Positions 35,051 through 43,349 of a stretch of DNA of 64,000 bases are shown here, piece by piece (positions within the stretch are counted from its first letter, which is position 1; the number at the start of each line of letters is the position of its first letter). Both the position numbers and the translations under genes were made by a program. Origin of the DNA: Embleya hyalina (GTDB taxonomy: Bacteria; Actinomycetota; Actinomycetes; Streptomycetales; Streptomycetaceae); assembly GCF_003967355.1 (NCBI RefSeq), contig NZ_BIFH01000020.1, positions 1 through 64,000 on the forward strand, read 5' to 3'. The notes below the pieces were generated by a model. The model was not told where the DNA came from. It saw only the letters and a program-made list of their open reading frames with translations, and ran no database searches.

Positions 35051-35443
35051 TCAGCCGTTCTCCTCGCGTCGACGACGCCAGCGGTCCTCGATGCGGTTCA
35101 TCACCTTGGCCTTGCGCCGCCGCGGTGCGCGACCGCGGCCCGCGCCGCCGCCCTCGCCCGCGTCGGGCGTCGCCGGTCCCCGGCGCCAACCGGTGACCGC
35201 GAGGAGCGCCCCACCGAGCATCGCCAGAAAGCCGATGACACTGACCCAGATCTGTTGGACCATCATGCCGGTCATCAACAGGACGATGCCGAGCAGGAAT
35301 CCGAGGATCGCCTGAACGGTGCGTCGCCGGGTATGCCGGCGCATGCCGGCTGCTTCGAGCGCTGTCGCGAATTTGGGATCTTCGGCGTAGAGCGCTCGCT
35401 CCATCTGCTCAAGCATGCGCTGCTCGTGCTCTGAGAGCGGCAC
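35051..35443 (-). CDS. DUF3040 small membrane protein
   Basis: A 130-residue protein starting MPLSEHEQRMLEQMERALYAEDPKFA, the diagnostic DUF3040 N-terminus. Two transmembrane helices (residues ~45-65 and ~68-88) and a basic tail rich in Arg and Gly follow. DUF3040 proteins are widespread in actinobacteria and often lie close to the dcw region; function is unknown. GTG 35443 is preceded by GGAGGACG. It is convergent with the MoxR operon and separated from dinB by 291 bp. Confidence 0.9.
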   Translation of the reverse strand: MPLSEHEQRMLEQMERALYAEDPKFATALEAAGMRRHTRRRTVQAILGFLLGIVLLMTGMMVQQIWVSVIGFLAMLGGALLAVTGWRRGPATPDAGEGGGAGRGRAPRRRKAKVMNRIEDRWRRRREENG

Positions 35444-35734: not shown

Positions 35735-36946
35735 TCAGCGCCCTCGCGGGCCCCGCGCCCGGGGTCCACGATCGAGCAGGGTGGCGGCGGTGAGCGCCGA
35801 ATCGCCGAATCGGCCGCGCACCGCGTCGGCCGCGCGCTCCACCTCACGCCGGCCCGGATCCCGCTCGCCGAGCACCAGTTGGCGCGGACAGCCGCCGCCG
35901 ACCAGGCCCTCCACCCGGATCCCGACCAGGCGCAGGCGGGCCCGTTCCAGGCCCAGCGCGCCGTGCAGCAGGCAGGCCACGTGGTAGATCTCGTGGCCCA
36001 CGTCGGTGGCCTCGCGCAGGGTCCTGCCGCGGGTGATGGTGCTGAAGTCGGCGAACCGGATCTTGATCGTGACGGTCCGCCCGGCCGTCTTCGCCCGGCG
36101 CAGCCGGGTCGCGGTGCGGTGCGCGAGGGCGAGCAGGGTGCGGCGGATCGCCACCGGGTCGTCCACGTCGGTGGGGAAAGTCTCCTCGGCGCCGATACTG
36201 CGTTCGGGTTCCCAGGGGATCACCGGCCGGCGGTCCCGCCCCCAGGCGAGTTCGTACAGCCCGCGCCCCGCGGCGGCACCGAGCGCGCGGCTCAGCGTCT
36301 CGACCGAAGTGTGGGCGACATCACCGATGGTGGTCAGGCCCAGATCGGTCAGCAACGCGCCGGTGCGCTCGCCGACGCCCCACAGGCGGTCCACCGGGAG
36401 CGGGTGCAGGAAGTCCACCACCTGCTCGGGGCGGATCACGCTGAGCCCGTCGGGTTTGGCCAGGGCGCCGGCCAGCTTGGCGGTGAACTTGGTGTCCGCG
36501 ATGCCGACCGAGCAGGTGATGCCCTGCTCGTCGAAGATCCGGGCGCGGATCGACTCGCCCACCGTCTCCGGCGGCCCCAGACGGCGGGTGACGCCCGCGA
36601 GGTCGAGGAACGCCTCGTCCAGGGACAGCGGCTCCACGCGCGGGGTGATCGAGCGCAGCACCTCCATGACGCCGCCGGACACGCGGGCGTAGTCGTCGTG
36701 TTCCGGGGAGAGGAAGAGCGCGTGCGGGGCGAGCCGGCGGGCCCGGGAGGTGGCCTGGCCGGCGTGCACGCCCAGCGCGCGCACGTCGTAGGTGGCGGAG
36801 AGCACCACCCCGCGCGGGCCCTGGCCGGCCACCACCAGGGGGGTGTCGCGCAGTGTCGGGTCGCGGCGGATCTCGACGGACGCGTAGAAGGCGTCCATGT
36901 CGACGTGCATGATCGCCTGCGGCGGTGCGGATCGGGCGGTGCTCAT
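35735..36946 (-). CDS. dinB: DNA polymerase IV (Y family)
   Basis: A 403-residue translesion DNA polymerase. Catalytic acidic residues are in MHVDMDAFYASVE (residues ~13-25) and PLSLDEAFLDL (~110-120). The finger/palm blocks VVAGQGPRGVVLSATYDVRALGVHAG and SVGIADTKFTAKLAG are normal, and helix-hairpin-helix residues LWGVGERTGALLTDLG lie near 190. The little-finger domain follows (PVAIRRTLLALAHRTATRLRRA). I see no clear beta-clamp-binding tail: the C-terminus is Arg/Gly-rich and ends RGPRGR. It is the last gene of the likely SOS operon that begins at 42174, 63 bp downstream of the methyltransferase gene. Confidence 0.95.
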   Translation of the reverse strand: MSTARSAPPQAIMHVDMDAFYASVEIRRDPTLRDTPLVVAGQGPRGVVLSATYDVRALGVHAGQATSRARRLAPHALFLSPEHDDYARVSGGVMEVLRSITPRVEPLSLDEAFLDLAGVTRRLGPPETVGESIRARIFDEQGITCSVGIADTKFTAKLAGALAKPDGLSVIRPEQVVDFLHPLPVDRLWGVGERTGALLTDLGLTTIGDVAHTSVETLSRALGAAAGRGLYELAWGRDRRPVIPWEPERSIGAEETFPTDVDDPVAIRRTLLALAHRTATRLRRAKTAGRTVTIKIRFADFSTITRGRTLREATDVGHEIYHVACLLHGALGLERARLRLVGIRVEGLVGGGCPRQLVLGERDPGRREVERAADAVRGRFGDSALTAATLLDRGPRARGPRGR

Positions 36947-37009
36947 CCGGCACCGCCCGTCCGGGCGTCGCGGCCGGGGCGGGAAGCGGGCCCCGGGCCG
37001 AAAGCGGGG

Positions 37010-37768
37010 CTAGTTCGCCGGCTTGCCCGCGAGCAGGTGCAGTTGGGTGGCCAGGGCGCGGTACTCGGGCTGTTCGGCCGCGGCGCGTTCGAGGTCGAGG
37101 AGGGCGTCGAACGAGCCCGGGTCGTCGACCAGGACGCCCGGGACCAGGTCGGCGAAGACCCGGATCGCGTGCACCGGGCCCGCCTCCAGGCCGGCCTTGG
37201 CGACCAGCGCGGTAAGGTCGGCGACGGTGAACCGGCGCGGCATCGGGTCGGCCGGGCCGTAGCGGCCCTCGGGATCGGCGAGCAGGTCGCGGGCCTGGTC
37301 GAAGTGCCCGGCGAGGGCGCGGGCCAGGACCGCGCCGGTGCGGTTGGCCGCGAGCAGGCTGAGCGTGCCGCCGGCGCGCAGCGCGCGGACGATCCGGCCG
37401 AGGTCGGCGGCGGGGTCGTCCACCACCTCGAGGACGCCGTGGCACAACACCACGTCGGCGGCGTCCGGCTCGACCACGTCGAACAGGTCGTGGGTGTCGC
37501 CCTGGAGGGCTCGGACCAGGTCGGTGACCCCGGCCTCGGCGGCCCGGCGCTCCAGCGCGGCGAGCGCGTCGGGGCTGGGGTCGACGACGGTGACCCGGTG
37601 TCCGAGTCGGGCGATGGGCACCGCGAGGTTGCCGGTGCCGCCGCCGGTGTCGAGCACGTCGAGGACGTCCCGTCCGGCCGCCTCGGCCCGTCGGTCCAAC
37701 GCCTCGCGCAGCACCTGCCACACGACGGCGGTGCGCATCGAGCTGCGCCTGCGCGTCTGGTCGGACAC
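37010..37768 (-). CDS. Class I SAM-dependent methyltransferase
   Basis: A 252-residue Rossmann-fold methyltransferase. The SAM-binding motif is VLDVLDTGGGTGNLAVPIARLG (residues ~35-56), followed by the acidic end of strand 2 in VTVVDPSPDALAAL and motif DVVLCHGVLEVVDDP. It begins VSDQTRRRSSMRTAVVWQVLREAL. GTG 37768 has GGAGGAGG six bases upstream, so I prefer it to the longer reading from 37801. The substrate is unknown. It sits 52 bp after dnaE2 and 63 bp before dinB on the same strand; a methyltransferase between two error-prone polymerases is a conspicuous position. Confidence 0.9.
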   Translation of the reverse strand: MSDQTRRRSSMRTAVVWQVLREALDRRAEAAGRDVLDVLDTGGGTGNLAVPIARLGHRVTVVDPSPDALAALERRAAEAGVTDLVRALQGDTHDLFDVVEPDAADVVLCHGVLEVVDDPAADLGRIVRALRAGGTLSLLAANRTGAVLARALAGHFDQARDLLADPEGRYGPADPMPRRFTVADLTALVAKAGLEAGPVHAIRVFADLVPGVLVDDPGSFDALLDLERAAAEQPEYRALATQLHLLAGKPAN

Positions 37769-37820
37769 GAACACCCTCCTCCGGAACCGGTCGGGTTCCA
37801 CCTTAGAGCGTGTGCGGAGG

Positions 37821-40800
37821 TCATCCCGCGCTCCCGGGGCTGGCGTGCCACAGCTTGCGCGGGGGCTGCTTGGCGGCGGTGCCGGCGGGACGCAGGTCGG
37901 CGTACGGGGAGACCTTGAAGCCGCTGGCGTGCACCAGGACCCGGCGCTCGGCGGGCGCGGCGGACGCCGGCCGCGTTCGGGCCATCAGCTCGTGCACCGC
38001 CGGAACGCCGCCGACGCTCCAGGCGTCGTGCAGCGCGCCCAACTCCCAGCATCCGGTGGCCCGCAGCGACACGCCGCGCGGTCCGGTGCGGCGCAGCACC
38101 CCGCGCACCACCAGCAGCCAGGAGTGGAACAGCGTGGCCGCGTACGGGTCCTGGGCGTCCTCGAAGAAGGTGGTGTCGACCGGTCCGGTGGCGTCGTCCA
38201 GGGTCAGGAAGATCACCCGGCGGCCGGAGCGGATCGGCGGCGTCTGGGTGGCCACCTTGACCCCGGCGACCAGCAATTCCTCGCGGTTGCGCCGGTTCAG
38301 CAGGTCGCGGGCGCGGGTGACGCCCAGGTCGGCCAGGAACGGCGCGTGGAAGTCGAGCACGTGCCGGCCGGCGTCCAGACCGAGCACGTCGAGTTCGGCC
38401 CGCACCCGTTCCACGTCGGTGAACTCGGGCAGGCCGGTGGCCGGCGGGATGTCGGGGGCCAGGCCCAGGTCGAGTTCGGCGCCCTCCTGGTGTCGGCCGC
38501 CCCGGCCTCGACCGGCCCGGCCGAGGCGGTTCAGGTCGGCGAGTTGCAGGAGCAGGTCGCGGCGGGTGGTCGGGGCCGGGTGCACGGCGTCGAACGCGCC
38601 GATGGTGATCAGCCGTTCGGTGGTCGGGCGGGACGCGCCGCCGCGGGCCCGGAAGTCGACGAGGGAGGTGTACGGGCGGTGCGCCAGGACGTGGGCCACC
38701 TCGTCGGCGCCGATGCCCTTGACCTCGGCCAGCGGGATCCGGATGCCGGGCGGTCCCTCGGCGAGGGGCTCGACCCGGTAGACGTCGTCGGAGCGGTTGA
38801 CGTCGACGCCCAGGATCGGCACGCCGAACTGGCGCGCGTCGTCCAGGATCAGCCGTTTGGGGTACATCCCGGGGTCGTGGGTGAGCACGCCGGCCAGGAA
38901 CGCGGCGGTGTGGTGCGTCTTGAGCCAGGCGGACTGGTACGTGGGCAGCGCGAAGGCGGCGGCGTGCGCCTTGCAGAAGCCGAACGAGGCGAAGGCCTCC
39001 AGGACGTCCCAGATCTTGTCGATCACCGGCCGGCTGTAGCCGCGGTGCGCGGCGAGTTCGTACAGCCAGCTCCGGACGGCGGGTTTTCGCTCGTGGCTGC
39101 CCAGCGCGCGGCGGGCCACGTCGGCGCGGGCGAGGTCGCAGCCGGTGGCGATGTGGATGATCCGGATCACCTGTTCGTGGAAGACCACCACGCCGCAGGT
39201 CTCGGCCAGCGCCGCGCGGAAGTCCTTGTGGATGTAGTAGGGCTCGGTCCAGCCCTGGCGGGCGGCGAGGAACGGGGTGACCATGTCGCTCTTGACCGGG
39301 CCGGGCCGGAACAGCGAGATGTCCACGATGATGTCCTCGAACGTCTCCGGGGCGAACTTGCCGATCAGCTCGCGCTGTCCGGGCGATTCGATCTGGAAGC
39401 AGCCGAGGGTGCGCGTGGAGCGGATCAGGTCGAACGTGGCCGGGTCGTCGTGCGCGATCGTGTCCAGGTCGGGGGCGGCGCCGTCGACCCGTTCGATCTC
39501 GGCCACCGCGTGCGCCATCGCGGACTGCATCCGCACCCCGAGCACGTCGAGCTTGAGCAGTCCCAGGTGTTCGACGTCCTCCTTGTCGAACTGGCTCATC
39601 GGGAAGCCCTGCGCGGAGGTCTCCACGGGGGTGCGGTCGAGGAGCGTGGGGTTGGACAGCAGTACGCCGCACGGGTGCAGGGCGAGGTGTCGGGGCAGGC
39701 CGTCGAGCCGGGCGGCGAGCGCGAACAGGCCGTCGAAGCCGCCGTCCCGGGCGAGTCGGTGGTTGCGCAGTTCGGGCAGGTCGCGCAGGGCCGGGCCGAG
39801 GTCGCGGGCGCGGATGTGCGGGAACGCCTTGGCCAGTTCGTCGATCTCGCCGGCGGCCAGGCCCAGGGCCGCGCCGACGTCGCGGATGGCGTGCCGGGCG
39901 CGGTAGGTCTCGGCCATCGACACGCAGGCGCAGCGCTCCGGGCCGAAGACCTCCATGATCCGCCGGTAGACGTCGGTACGGCGGGCGGATTCCACGTCGA
40001 CGTCGATGTCGGGCAGCGCGGTGCGCCGGTCCGAGACGAAACGCTCCATCAGCAGGCCGTGTCGGAGCGGGTCGACGCCGGAGATGCCGAGCAGGTGGTT
40101 GACCAGGCTGCCCGCGCCGGAGCCGCGGGCGGCGCAGCGCACGCCCATGTCCCGGATCAGGTCGACCACGCCGGCCACGGTCAGGAAGTAGGACGGCAGG
40201 CCGAGTCGGCCGATCAGCGCCAGCTCGTCGTCGAGGCGACCCAGCGCTTCGGTGGTGGGGGCGATGCCGCGCAGCCCCAGGCCCGCCTCGCACCGCGCGC
40301 GCAGTTCGGCGCCGGCCCGGCTCGCGGGCACGCCCAGCACCTCCGGCTCGGGGTAGAACACGCTGCCGATGCCCAGGTCCCGGGCCGGGTCCAGGACCAG
40401 TTCGTCGGCCAGCGCGCGGCCGGCGCCGAGCAGCGCGGCGGCGGTGCCCCGGCCGGCCAGGCAGGTGATCTCGGCGGCGACGGCGACCATGTCGAGGGTG
40501 GGCTTGAGGTATGCCTCGGAGCCGGTGCGGGCCAGGTGGTGCGGGCCGAGCGGGACCAGCCGGCGGGCCGAGTCGAGCACGTCGGCGACCACGGCGTCCT
40601 CGCGGTCGGCGTAGCGCACCGCGTTGGTGAGCACGGCGGGCACGCGGTGGGTGTCGGCGAGAGTGAGCGTCCGGGCCGCGTGGACGGCGGATCCGGCCCG
40701 GCCCGGCGGCGCGAGATGGCACACCAGTTCGAGGTACAGGGCGTCGTCGGCCATCACGGCGCGGGCCCGGGCGAGCAGTCGTGCGGCGAGCGCGGGCCGG

Positions 40801-41300
40801 TCGGCGGCGAGCGCCCGGCCGACCTCGGAGTCGGGTCCGGCCAGTACGACCACGGCGCCGTCGGTCGCGGCCAGCGCCTCCCAGGTGGTCACCGGGTTGA
40901 CCCGGTCGCGCCGGTGCGCGTCGCTGATCAGCCGGCACAGCGCGGCCCAGCCGGCCTTCCCCCGGGCGAGCACGGTGACCCGGGGATGCCCGGGGTCGGT
41001 GAACGCGCCGCCGCGCGCGGGGGTGCGCCGGACCCGGGCCGGCGCGACGGGATCCGGCTCGGCGGGCAGCACCGCCAGCTCGGCGCCCAGGATCGGCCGA
41101 ATGCCCGCCGCGAGGCAGCCGCGCGCGAAGGCGACCGCGCCGTACACCCCGTCCCGGTCGGTCAGCGCGAGGGTGTCCAGGCCGTGTTCGACCGCGCGCT
41201 CGATCAGGGTGTTCGGGTGCGAGACGCCGTAGCGCATCGAATGCCCCGACGCGACGTGCAGGTGGGCGAAGGGGCGGTTCGATCGATTCGGTCGGTTCAT
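37821..41300 (-). CDS. dnaE2: Error-prone DNA polymerase III alpha subunit DnaE2
   Basis: A 1159-residue C-family polymerase. The N-terminal PHP domain starts FAHLHVASGHSMRYGVSHPN and continues LALTDRDGVYGAVAFA. The polymerase core has the two-aspartate motif ALPDIDVDVESARRTDVY (about residue 425), the third carboxylate region PGPVKSDMVTPFLAARQG, and FDKEDVEHLGLLKLDVLGVRM. An HhH segment and an OB-fold region (VFLTLDDATG near 1025) follow. No beta-clamp motif of the replicative type is obvious at the C-terminus. Sequence character and a LexA-linked operon with dinB mark it as DnaE2 (ImuC), the SOS mutagenesis polymerase, rather than the replicative DnaE1. Confidence 0.93.
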   Translation of the reverse strand: MNRPNRSNRPFAHLHVASGHSMRYGVSHPNTLIERAVEHGLDTLALTDRDGVYGAVAFARGCLAAGIRPILGAELAVLPAEPDPVAPARVRRTPARGGAFTDPGHPRVTVLARGKAGWAALCRLISDAHRRDRVNPVTTWEALAATDGAVVVLAGPDSEVGRALAADRPALAARLLARARAVMADDALYLELVCHLAPPGRAGSAVHAARTLTLADTHRVPAVLTNAVRYADREDAVVADVLDSARRLVPLGPHHLARTGSEAYLKPTLDMVAVAAEITCLAGRGTAAALLGAGRALADELVLDPARDLGIGSVFYPEPEVLGVPASRAGAELRARCEAGLGLRGIAPTTEALGRLDDELALIGRLGLPSYFLTVAGVVDLIRDMGVRCAARGSGAGSLVNHLLGISGVDPLRHGLLMERFVSDRRTALPDIDVDVESARRTDVYRRIMEVFGPERCACVSMAETYRARHAIRDVGAALGLAAGEIDELAKAFPHIRARDLGPALRDLPELRNHRLARDGGFDGLFALAARLDGLPRHLALHPCGVLLSNPTLLDRTPVETSAQGFPMSQFDKEDVEHLGLLKLDVLGVRMQSAMAHAVAEIERVDGAAPDLDTIAHDDPATFDLIRSTRTLGCFQIESPGQRELIGKFAPETFEDIIVDISLFRPGPVKSDMVTPFLAARQGWTEPYYIHKDFRAALAETCGVVVFHEQVIRIIHIATGCDLARADVARRALGSHERKPAVRSWLYELAAHRGYSRPVIDKIWDVLEAFASFGFCKAHAAAFALPTYQSAWLKTHHTAAFLAGVLTHDPGMYPKRLILDDARQFGVPILGVDVNRSDDVYRVEPLAEGPPGIRIPLAEVKGIGADEVAHVLAHRPYTSLVDFRARGGASRPTTERLITIGAFDAVHPAPTTRRDLLLQLADLNRLGRAGRGRGGRHQEGAELDLGLAPDIPPATGLPEFTDVERVRAELDVLGLDAGRHVLDFHAPFLADLGVTRARDLLNRRNREELLVAGVKVATQTPPIRSGRRVIFLTLDDATGPVDTTFFEDAQDPYAATLFHSWLLVVRGVLRRTGPRGVSLRATGCWELGALHDAWSVGGVPAVHELMARTRPASAAPAERRVLVHASGFKVSPYADLRPAGTAAKQPPRKLWHASPGSAG

Positions 41301-41358
41301 GGGTGGTGCCGGTTCTCGGGTGGGGGCGTGCGGTGGCGGGGCGTTCGAGGGAGGGCGT

Positions 41359-41874
41359 TCAGTCGACGGGAGGGGGCGGGGCCGGGATCGGGGGCAGCGC
41401 GAGCAGGCGCACCACCAGGCGGAAGAAGGTCTCGACGTCGCGGATCAGGTCGTCGGCCTCGCGGCCGGTGACCGCGCCGGGCAGGCCCGCCTCGGCGGCG
41501 GCGCGCTTGCGGGCACCGGACGCGAAGAAGGCGGCCCACTCGACCAGCTCGGGCGCCACCTTCGGCAGCAGCTCCCACGCGCTGCGCGGGGCCCGCCGGC
41601 GCCGGCCCGGGCGCTGCTCGTCGGCCTGTGCCCGGGCGGCGAGCACGGCCGCGGCCACCCGCAGCGCGGCCAGGTGGGCGGTGGCGTAGCGCTCCGCCGC
41701 GTCGGGGTTGACGGCGGCCTCCGTGAGCCCGCGCCGAGCCTGGGCCAGCAGGTCGAGCGCCCCGCGCGGGGCGGACGACCAGCGCACCGGCGCTCGTCGG
41801 ATCGGCGGCGGCTCGGGTATGTGGGCGGACTGGTTCACACTCGTGCGCACACTCGCGCTCGCGCTCGCGCTCAC
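41359..41874 (-). CDS. SAV_6107-type HEPN-domain protein
   Basis: A 171-residue, mainly helical protein. Its segment APRGALDLLAQARRGLTEAAVNPDAAERYATAHLAALRVAAAVLAARAQ matches, from memory, the actinobacterial SAV_6107-like HEPN family. No clear RxxxxH ribonuclease motif is visible, so it may be a non-catalytic HEPN. The tail ends in a Pro-rich stretch. GTG 41874 follows GGAGGTGA and comes 12 bases after the DUF6504 stop. The first codons (SASASAS) come from a GCGCTC microsatellite. It is the second gene of the LexA-box operon; function unknown. Confidence 0.82.
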   Translation of the reverse strand: MSASASASVRTSVNQSAHIPEPPPIRRAPVRWSSAPRGALDLLAQARRGLTEAAVNPDAAERYATAHLAALRVAAAVLAARAQADEQRPGRRRRAPRSAWELLPKVAPELVEWAAFFASGARKRAAAEAGLPGAVTGREADDLIRDVETFFRLVVRLLALPPIPAPPPPVD

Positions 41875-41886
41875 GGAGTCACCTCC

Positions 41887-42174
41887 TCAATCGGCGGTCC
41901 GAGCCAGCGTCCAGGTACCGGCGCCGGCGTCCAGGCTGAGGTCGTAGACGCCCAGGGGCGCGCTGCGACCGGCCCCGGCCTCCACACGCCACACCTCGCG
42001 CTCCCCCGTCGTCACGACGGCGGCCCGCGAACGCGCGTGCTGCCACCACTCGCCGGTCTCGACCCAGTGGCCGAGCACTTCCCGGACCACGTAGAGCCGG
42101 TCGTGCCACAGGAACCGCGCGGGGTCCCCACCACTGCGCAGCACCTCCACCGGATCGGTGTGCAGACGCGTCAT
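41887..42174 (-). CDS. DUF6504 family protein
   Basis: A 95-residue soluble protein: MTRLHTDPVEVLRSGGDPAR, then FLWHDRLYVVREVLGHWVETGEWWQ, then REVWRVEAG and GVYDLSLD. It is rich in Trp and beta-strand-like, and resembles a small family found beside Y-family or DnaE2 polymerases in actinobacteria (DUF6504, from memory). ATG 42174 has GGAGG six bases upstream. It is the first gene after the LexA box, about 105 bp downstream of it, and therefore the leading gene of the SOS operon. No catalytic motif seen. Confidence 0.82.
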   Translation of the reverse strand: MTRLHTDPVEVLRSGGDPARFLWHDRLYVVREVLGHWVETGEWWQHARSRAAVVTTGEREVWRVEAGAGRSAPLGVYDLSLDAGAGTWTLARTAD

Positions 42175-42259
42175 ACGGCTCCTCCTCCGCCGAGGCCCGG
42201 GCCGCGATGCGCTTCCCCACGCACCGCGACCCCGGCCGCCCATCCGTTTGCCCCGTGCC

Positions 42260-42401
42260 GTTCGAGTCGAACTTTTTTCTCGAACAAAAGTTCGATCCCG
42301 TTTGCCAGTAAAGCTCTCTCCCCCACCCACGTCAACGTCATTGCCGCAGTACCGGGCGAACCGTCGTGTTCGATCGATGTTCGAGCATGTTCGAGTCGAA
42401 C
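42260..42401. repeat. TGTTCGA array and duplicated GTTCGAGTCGAAC palindrome
   Basis: The 13-bp palindrome GTTCGAGTCGAAC occurs at 42260-42272 and again at 42389-42401. TGTTCGA occurs in direct repeat at 42367, 42378 and 42388, 10-11 bp apart. None has the N4 spacing of a true LexA box. The cluster flanks the LexA box in the divergent control region, so degenerate LexA sites or a second regulator are possible. Confidence 0.7.
42280..42295. promoter_or_regulatory. LexA (SOS) box
   Basis: TCGAACAAAAGTTCGA is a perfect inverted repeat of the form CGAAC-N4-GTTCG, the LexA operator of actinobacteria and Bacillus. It lies about 105 bp upstream of the DUF6504-HEPN-dnaE2-methyltransferase-dinB operon and 188 bp upstream of the divergent PLP-enzyme gene. 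It predicts induction of the mutagenesis cassette by DNA damage. Confidence 0.93.
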
Positions 42402-42482
42402 CGCCCCCGTCCCGTCCACCGTGACAGGCCACTCCGACAGCCGACGCCGCCGACGAGCCGGCCGACGTGCGACCCTGCCCGG

Positions 42483-43349
42483 GTGCGACCACGTCTGCCC
42501 TCGCCGCTGTGCGAGCTGTCCGATCCCCGCCTGACCACCCTCGGCCTGCGCCTGCGCCTCAAACGGGACGACCTGATCCATCCCGAGGTGCCGGGCAACA
42601 AGTGGCGCAAGCTGAAGTACAACCTGGTGGCGGCCCGCGAGCGGGGCGAGCACACCCTGCTGACCTTCGGCGGCGCCTACTCGAACCACCTCCGGGCCAC
42701 CGCCGCCGCCGGCCGCGCGCTCGGCCTGGCCACCGTCGGCGTGGTGCGCGGCGAGGAGCTCGCCGACCGCCCGCTCAACCCGTCGCTCGCCTTCGCGGCC
42801 GAACGCGGCATGCGGCTGGTGTTCGTGGACCGCGCCACCTACCGGGCCAAGCACACGCCGAAGGTGCTGGAGCGGCTGCTCGCCGCACACGGGCCGGCGT
42901 ACGTACTGCCCGAGGGCGGCAGCAACGAGGCCGCCGTGCGCGGGTGCGCGGAGCTGCCCGCCGAACTCGGCGACGACGTCGACACGGTCTGCGTCGCGGT
43001 GGGCACCGGCGGCACGCTGGCCGGGATCGCGGCGGGACTGCCCGCCGGGCGGCACGCGATCGGCTTCGCGGTGCTCGGGGGCGGCTTCCTCGCCGACGAG
43101 GTGGCCGACCTCCAGCGCCGCACCTACGGCGCCCCGACCGACAACTGGCACGTGGAGAACGACTTCCACCACGGCGGCTACGCCCGGCGCGGCCCGGAAC
43201 TGGACACCTTCCTCGCCGACTTCGCGGCCCGACACGGCTTCGCGCCCGAACCGGTCTACGTGGGCAAGATGTTGTTCGGGCTGTTCGCCCTCGCCGAGCG
43301 CGGCGCCTTCGCCCCGGGCACCCGGCTGGTCGCGGTGGTCACCGGCTGA
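42483..43349 (+). CDS. PLP-dependent ACC deaminase / D-cysteine desulfhydrase family protein
   Basis: A 288-residue fold-type II PLP enzyme. The Schiff-base lysine is in LKRDDLIHPEVPGNKWRKLKYNL (residues ~20-42). FGGAYSNHLRATAAAGRALG and the phosphate-binding VGTGGTLAGIAAGL follow, then EPVYVGKMLFGLF. Members deaminate 1-aminocyclopropane-1-carboxylate or release H2S from D-cysteine; the residues that tell them apart I cannot judge safely, and D-cysteine desulfhydrase is the commoner bacterial activity. I chose GTG 42483; ATG 42366 would add 39 residues of low-complexity sequence overlapping the operator-like repeats. Confidence 0.85.
   Translation: MRPRLPSPLCELSDPRLTTLGLRLRLKRDDLIHPEVPGNKWRKLKYNLVAARERGEHTLLTFGGAYSNHLRATAAAGRALGLATVGVVRGEELADRPLNPSLAFAAERGMRLVFVDRATYRAKHTPKVLERLLAAHGPAYVLPEGGSNEAAVRGCAELPAELGDDVDTVCVAVGTGGTLAGIAAGLPAGRHAIGFAVLGGGFLADEVADLQRRTYGAPTDNWHVENDFHHGGYARRGPELDTFLADFAARHGFAPEPVYVGKMLFGLFALAERGAFAPGTRLVAVVTG

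Follow-up and report, generated by a model that had tools for sequence, protein, structure and literature searches.

A predicted LexA-controlled mutagenesis operon of Embleya hyalina joins a DnaE2B-type mutasome core to a HEPN protein and a conserved leader RNA

Embleya hyalina belongs to the family of Streptomyces, in another genus, and has a genome of 12.05 Mb. We analysed 64,000 nt of this genome (contig NZ_BIFH01000020.1, positions 1-64,000; hereafter the window), the minus strand of which carries a putative SOS mutagenesis operon of five genes. Along that strand, a predicted promoter and a LexA box precede genes for a DUF6504 protein, a HEPN protein, the polymerase DnaE2, a methyltransferase and the Y-family polymerase DinB. 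The features of the locus are as follows.

42307-42335, minus strand: predicted promoter TTGACG-N17-TTTACT, from hexamers and spacing kept in relatives and hexamer enrichment before the box
42280-42295, minus strand: LexA box TCGAACTTTTGTTCGA, 11 nt past the -10 hexamer, from a pattern match
42199-42232, minus strand: predicted leader RNA hairpin HP2 with loop UGGGGAAG, from a covariance model, folding and covariation
41887-42174, minus strand: DUF6504 protein, 95 amino acids, putative standalone ImuB-C domain (PF20114, 69.3 bits)
41359-41874, minus strand: HEPN_SAV_6107 protein, 171 amino acids (PF18726, 121.9 bits; HEPN fold in the predicted model)
37821-41300, minus strand: DnaE2 of the DnaE2B type, 1159 amino acids, from Pfam domains, polymerase aspartates and a tree
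37010-37801, minus strand, start possibly 37768: class I S-adenosylmethionine-dependent methyltransferase (Methyltransf_11, 60.7 bits)
35735-36946, minus strand: DinB-type Y-family polymerase, 403 amino acids, with a RecA-NT-like tail, from domain matches and catalytic motifs
35051-35443, minus strand: SCO2097-family protein (NF058603, 165.3 bits), a conserved neighbour outside the operon count

Open reading frames (ORFs) and Pfam matches agree with the five genes and domains named in the original prediction, which was made from the sequence of the window, and the intergenic gaps of 12, 58 and 63 bp match as well. The remaining gap, between DnaE2 and the methyltransferase, depends on the start codon chosen: it is 52 bp, as first given, with GTG at 37768 and 19 bp with GTG at 37801. 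The promoter and the leader RNA are features that the prediction did not have. It had also expected the 5' end of the transcript near 42200; judged from the promoter position, we predict it near 42300 instead. From the box to the DUF6504 start codon (42174) is 105 nt.

The box, TCGAACAAAAGTTCGA (TCGAAC-AAAA-GTTCGA), is the only mismatch-free CGAAC-N4-GTTCG in the window, as had been claimed. Its perfect 16-mer form occurs at three places in the whole genome, and the same pattern read backwards, used as a control, occurs at none. One of the other two copies (L126, own genome C35:73621) adjoins small ORFs that look phage-like by eye (HNH, terminase-like); the second is L127 (C38:147617). The host has a perfect box upstream of its recA, and its lexA has a one-mismatch box, TCGAACGTGTGTTT, that equals the S. 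venezuelae lexA-2 box over 14 letters. That box is bound by S. venezuelae LexA, for which a consensus of CGAAC-N4-GNNCG has been given, and in the same species dnaE2 and dinP rise 30.6-fold and 13.7-fold with mitomycin C (PMC9380542).

A congener and a relative from another genus of the family have identical promoter hexamers with the same 17-nt spacing. In 90 distinct upstream sequences with a perfect box, TTGAC is most frequent 38-42 nt ahead of it and TAnnnT 15-17 nt ahead, and a strict promoter pair is present in 39 (shuffled mean 0.075, maximum 1). The window's box begins 11 nt after the -10 hexamer, so LexA bound there would cover the transcription start. A cluster of TCGAAC/GTTCG half-sites also lies at 42360-42405, between the operon and a divergent ORF for a pyridoxal-phosphate enzyme (42366-43349, start uncertain); it is kept in the congener and mostly lost in another genus.

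To see how far this arrangement extends, we surveyed 296 genomes of the class. HEPN_SAV_6107 is present in 197 of them and DUF6504 in 121. DnaE2B (at least 47% identity) was found at no fewer than 137 places in at least 136 genomes among the matches listed; of these 137 listed places, 89 have DUF6504 within 3 kb and at least 48 have HEPN within 3 kb. We then scored boxes at 121 loci: 60 centred on HEPN, 60 centred on DnaE2B, and the window. Of the 47 loci with both HEPN and DnaE2B, spread over 21 families, 45 have a perfect box upstream; the box density of the same loci gives an expectation of 0.014 per locus. This supports, at the level of sequence, the LexA control that had been proposed. 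Other loci with HEPN are boxed less uniformly: 2 of 3 with HEPN, methyltransferase and DinB, the single one with HEPN and DinB, 1 of 5 with HEPN, ImuB and DnaE2A, and 1 of 21 with HEPN and methyltransferase. Loci lacking HEPN have a perfect box in 1 of 15 cases with DnaE2B and DinB, 1 of 6 with DUF6504 and DnaE2B, 1 of 4 with DnaE2B, and 2 of 3 with DUF6504, DnaE2B and DinB.

A set of 80 named loci, which overlaps the unnamed set in part so that counts are not summed, has HEPN with DnaE2 in 49, and 44 of those 49 have a perfect box. They include Geodermatophilus, Blastococcus, Nocardioides, Janibacter, Humibacillus, Tessaracoccus, Micropruina and Streptacidiphilus. The linkage is thus conserved in related genomes, with the order DUF6504-HEPN-DnaE2-(methyltransferase)-DinB recurring in many families; the suggestion that the arrangement is unusual falls away, since many actinomycetes have it and its core has already been proposed (PMC12926913). 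Within the window's own family, DUF6504 occurs in 20 of 200 genomes and 6 of 17 genera, and in none of the Streptomyces-type genus, by which we mean the genus whose DnaE2 groups with that of named Streptomyces. Four records with the operon are titled Bifidobacterium breve and Rubrivirga (L254, L273, L290, L282); their DnaE2 groups with Nanopelagicales-type rows, and they are probably mislabelled metagenome bins.

DnaE2 keeps its polymerase aspartates (PDIDVDVE, GLLKLDVLG), which are invariant in eight aligned rows except at I/V positions. Several residues of what we take to be the PHP metal site of the host's DnaE1 are replaced in it. In a FastTree phylogeny of 159 rows, the window's DnaE2 falls into one clade (support 100) with the DnaE2 of Streptomyces and Tessaracoccus antarcticus, apart from five ImuB-linked DnaE2A; the group names are borrowed from PMC12926913, and the tree is our own. 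Both catalytic motifs of DinB, HVDMDAFY and SLDEAF, are present, and the enzyme is apparently active. It groups with four others of the family, including that of Streptacidiphilus pinicola (support 99 in a quick tree), which fits vertical descent. All 13 Streptomyces-type DinB beside DnaE2B, by comparison, lack the first motif even in a full open frame, and the Streptomyces protein has been read as inactive (PMC6511836). The host genome has only two PF00817 proteins, one RecA by PF00154 search, and no ImuB match at E<=1e-20. Two known arrangements could thereby be set aside: the canonical ImuA'-ImuB-DnaE2 cassette, for lack of an ImuB match in the genome, and the Streptomyces inactive-PolY system, because the window's DinB keeps both motifs. 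The earlier view of a full-length DinB in the place of ImuB, within an alternative translesion module, is supported.

PF20114, the Pfam family of DUF6504, matches the C-terminus of ImuB from Caulobacter sp. FWC26 (residues 415-488, 32.2 bits) and from Sphingobium herbicidovorans (residues 527-598, 29.0 bits), both above the cut-off of 24.2, and the latter record itself names its ImuB 'DUF6504 family protein'. ImuB-C has been described as small and beta-rich (PMC6511836); the model of the window's DUF6504 protein (predicted local distance difference test score 81.9, six strands) is likewise small and beta-rich. By way of proteobacterial ImuB, then, sequence comparison identifies DUF6504 as a standalone ImuB-C domain, and as such it would be a real part of the module. 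A literature search in which most subscription papers were absent found no paper on DUF6504.

DnaE2 and DinB might instead be independent SOS polymerases that share an operon and nothing more, with DUF6504 serving one of them. Some families do have DUF6504-DnaE2 without DinB nearby and others HEPN-methyltransferase-DinB without DnaE2, and DinB, being apparently active, need not be a scaffold. We nevertheless consider this distinctly unlikely, given how often DUF6504 lies close to DnaE2B (the 89 of 137 listed places above) and that an equal composition has been proposed as one complex (PMC12926913).

Sixteen loci have HEPN alone, away from the polymerases, and ten of them have a perfect LexA box upstream; at one of the 16 (L055), DUF6504 stands beside HEPN and DnaE2 is 8 kb away. 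In three loci (L074, L075, L088) the box starts 34 nt before the HEPN ORF. HEPN and the methyltransferase also occur together, without a perfect box, in all 20 Streptomyces-type loci. Nine of these 20 (L038, L042, L043, L045, L047, L048, L050, L051, L054) share a CGAAC-N4-GATCG site, located 220-232 bp ahead of the HEPN match and compatible with the S. venezuelae consensus; the available text of the S. venezuelae LexA paper (PMC9380542) does not mention the HEPN gene. At L343, in another genus of the family, the box, DUF6504, HEPN and methyltransferase are present, and dnaE2 and dinB were not found within 9.3 kb. In families f18 and f37, HEPN, a small ORF, imuB and dnaE2A follow one another in five loci, four of which have the methyltransferase and four DinB. 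The small ORF stands in the place of imuA' and has no Pfam match, so that calling it imuA' reflects its position and size. In these loci (L058, L070, L071, L072, L091) an ImuB-DnaE2A cassette sits inside the HEPN...methyltransferase/DinB frame, as though one mutasome type had replaced another within a single operon.

HEPN and the methyltransferase could be passengers of a conserved neighbourhood with no role in damage tolerance. That would suit the SCO2097-family neighbour, which adjoins the operon in most loci, the many DnaE2B+HEPN loci in which no methyltransferase was detected, and the persistence of both genes without a perfect box at the 20 Streptomyces-type loci. Passengers would not be expected to behave as HEPN does outside this neighbourhood, where in other families it is still boxed (the 10 of 16 HEPN-alone loci; L074, L075, L088), or to accompany two different mutasome types. 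We regard the passenger explanation as unlikely, though well worth keeping in mind, and HEPN as probably more than a passenger, and on these genomic associations a likely conserved SOS gene. The idea that the small proteins are mutasome parts accordingly divides: it stands for DUF6504, and is doubtful for HEPN and the methyltransferase as polymerase accessories, because both persist without polymerase genes and HEPN is boxed when alone. HEPN is better described as an additional SOS product that accompanies the mutasome than as a fixed part of the polymerase.

HEPN toxins are expected to carry their R-x4-6-H motif in a late helix. The HEPN superfamily membership of the window's protein and its conserved R62-x4-H67 would fit an SOS-induced RNase, a checkpoint effector that slows growth. 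In our model, however, the motif lies in helix 2, and a survey of the superfamily gives 'No' for the conserved motif of HEPN-M SAV_6107 (PMC3710099), which makes binding likelier than cutting and an RNase very improbable. Judged from sequence and model, the protein most likely binds RNA or a partner protein in the damage response. In PADLOC it matches PDC-M05B (best E 1.9e-5). A literature search, mostly without subscription papers, found no paper linking HEPN to a DnaE2B mutasome. The methyltransferase matches part of mad2 in PADLOC (E 6.4e-19). Its best NCBIfam match, CmoM, was rejected as an identity, the 105.8 bits falling far under the cut-off of 366.

Between the box and the first gene, many leaders contain hairpins with nearly invariant loops and compensating changes in their stems. 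We aligned 30 of 39 candidates for one hairpin, HP1 (loop ACCUCGACCCC), and 19 of 27 for a second, HP2 (loop UGGGGAAG, sometimes AGGGGAAG). Two-sided changes occur in 14 of 14 pairs of HP1 and 12 of 13 pairs of HP2, counts that rest on selected rows because candidates with shifted or poorer stems and near-duplicates were left out. Covariation is 0.660 for HP1 (0.239 shuffled, at most 0.331 slid) and 0.690 for HP2 (0.224 shuffled, at most 0.298 slid). G-U outnumbers A-C by 37:11 in HP1 and 22:6 in HP2, an excess that fits an RNA of the operon strand. In the window, HP2 (42232-42199) scores 43.7 bits as a row of the training set and folds at -27.6 kcal/mol (z -5.89), and the whole leader folds at z -4.71.

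Searches with the covariance models place both hairpins at the operon, with different specificity. Across the 296 genomes, HP1 gives 31 matches at E<=0.1, of which 26 lie in the operon leader (12 of them outside the training rows) and 5 elsewhere, and all 20 matches with E<=0.02 are in the leader; HP1 is nearly operon-specific. HP2 gives 23 matches at E<=1 in 87 sources (1.56 Mb). For twenty of these the distance was measured, and a DUF6504 or HEPN match follows 71-460 nt downstream; L085 is the distant and weak one. The remaining three (the window, L341 and L342) sit in operon leaders. Eleven of the 23 loci are outside the training set, and nine of those 11 have HEPN and no DnaE2 nearby. A second set of 85 sources yields 11 matches, with L295, L296 and L258 the weaker ones. 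In the 296 genomes at E<=0.01, HP2 has 43 matches; at least 19 lie just upstream of a listed HEPN (6 of the 19 outside the training rows), and one more lies upstream of a HEPN found by translation.

Rfam 15 gave no match at its gathering score in seven loci. Permissive scans of five stretches gave below-gathering matches only, the best being Ms_AS-8 with 24.9 bits against 48 at one locus, unseen in two others. The hairpins thus appear to form a conserved RNA element new to Rfam 15, and the pattern of covariation marks the predicted leader hairpin as a genuine RNA element within the transcript.

HP2 was also seen at other genes. Three copies in family f26 separate nrdR from a gene for class II ribonucleotide reductase (L355 and L364 by Pfam, L350 by eye), and at L357 the hairpin follows the end of such a reductase gene. 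At L361 it comes directly after recA, at L363 (and, judged by eye, similarly at L356) it precedes an NlpC/P60 gene, and at L358 it precedes a nuclease-like gene. The copies at L357 (~1250) and L358 (~1259) are near-identical, belong to one genome (G105) and each follow a palindrome of the TCACA-TGTGA type, giving them the look of a repeated element. At L359 and L360, HP2 lies ~80-125 nt after a perfect LexA box and no HEPN gene was found within 3 kb; these may be orphan leaders or, possibly, an SOS small RNA.

GC-rich stems often protect or attenuate mRNA, and the leader hairpins could be mere stability or attenuation stems without a specific partner. The scattered positions of HP2, at nrdR-nrdJ, after recA and before the NlpC/P60 and nuclease-like genes, agree with such a general role. 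Set against it are loops that stay nearly invariant while the stems vary with compensation, and the lack of a U-tract after HP2 in the window. We judge this a real possibility, somewhat short of even. A more ambitious proposal is that the actinomycete SOS response has a post-transcriptional layer, in which an RNA-binding protein, with HEPN the lead candidate, recognises the UGGGGAAG and ACCUCGACCCC loops in the leader, and UGGGGAAG also at nrdJ, recA and other damage- or nucleotide-related genes, so that error-prone synthesis would be gated twice. This is speculative, and we think it improbable. Where both hairpins are present, their loops could perhaps kiss through GGGG and CCCC.

Overall, we read the locus as a LexA-repressed mutagenesis operon with a DnaE2B-type mutasome core, to which we assign a probability of roughly 0.72. 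LexA, bound to the box at the transcription start, would repress the operon until damage led to LexA cleavage and expression. DinB, with intact motifs and a RecA-binding-like tail, would replace ImuB in the mutasome and contact RecA; DUF6504 would supply the ImuB-C part that holds DnaE2; and RecA would recruit the DinB-DUF6504-DnaE2 complex, in which DnaE2 would copy past lesions mutagenically. HEPN may act as an RNA- or partner-binding SOS protein, and the leader hairpin most likely tunes translation or stability of the transcript after LexA leaves.

Several observations weigh against this reading. A generic promoter scan, which accepts a second hexamer only with A as its second base, listed no promoter in the window region. 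PF20114 did not match the two actinobacterial ImuB scanned, and hhalign gave no alignment between DUF6504 and 16 ImuB C-termini. The likeness of the DinB tail ERAADAVRGRFGDSALTAATLLD to the host's RecA ENALAQIERQFGKGSVMRLGD was judged by eye. HP1 has no covariance match in the window, and inspection of ten of HP2's other places found it at unrelated genes too. Finally, among the matches listed, the surrounding genome lacks HEPN at 42 of the 137 DnaE2B places, which makes HEPN dispensable for DnaE2B.

If LexA repression of a DnaE2B-type core is the right reading, the locus names the specific genes for damage-induced mutation in actinomycetes without ImuB, connects DUF6504, an unnamed Pfam domain, with ImuB-C and points to the HEPN protein as a likely conserved SOS gene. 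A conserved RNA between the LexA operator and the first gene, if true, would mean that the yield of mutagenic polymerase is not set by LexA release alone.

Four known systems or families invite comparison. The ImuA'-ImuB-DnaE2 mutasome is also SOS-type and likewise combines DnaE2 with ImuB-C, and ImuB-DnaE2A occupies the same HEPN frame in five loci; it has ImuB, however, for which the window's genome has no match (E<=1e-20). The Streptomyces DnaE2B-iPolY system (scDinB2) also places DnaE2B beside a Y-family gene (PMC6511836, PMC12926913) and is SOS-regulated in S. venezuelae (PMC9380542), but its PolY is inactive and it has no ImuB-C, whereas the window's DinB motifs are intact and DUF6504 is present. 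The HEPN protein, for its part, matches PF18726 and has the HEPN fold, in keeping with HEPN-M (SAV_6107), which the survey in PMC3710099 describes as actinobacterial and without conserved motif; the available part of that survey gives no context, and LexA boxes are seen here. Closest is the putative DnaE2B-PolY-[ImuB-C]-RecA mutasome, the fourth DnaE2B group, represented by Tessaracoccus lapidicaptus (PMC12926913). Compared with its description, the window appears to share the DnaE2B-type polymerase, an apparently active PolY, a standalone ImuB-C and a genome without ImuB, and Tessaracoccus antarcticus (L295), of the same genus, has DUF6504-HEPN-DnaE2-DinB with a perfect box. HEPN, the methyltransferase and the leader RNA are not mentioned in that paper's section on this mutasome. 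Because its core is the one described there, the operon belongs to a known, putative mutasome kind; as far as sequence comparison goes, it adds to that kind a HEPN partner behind a LexA box and a leader RNA that is new.

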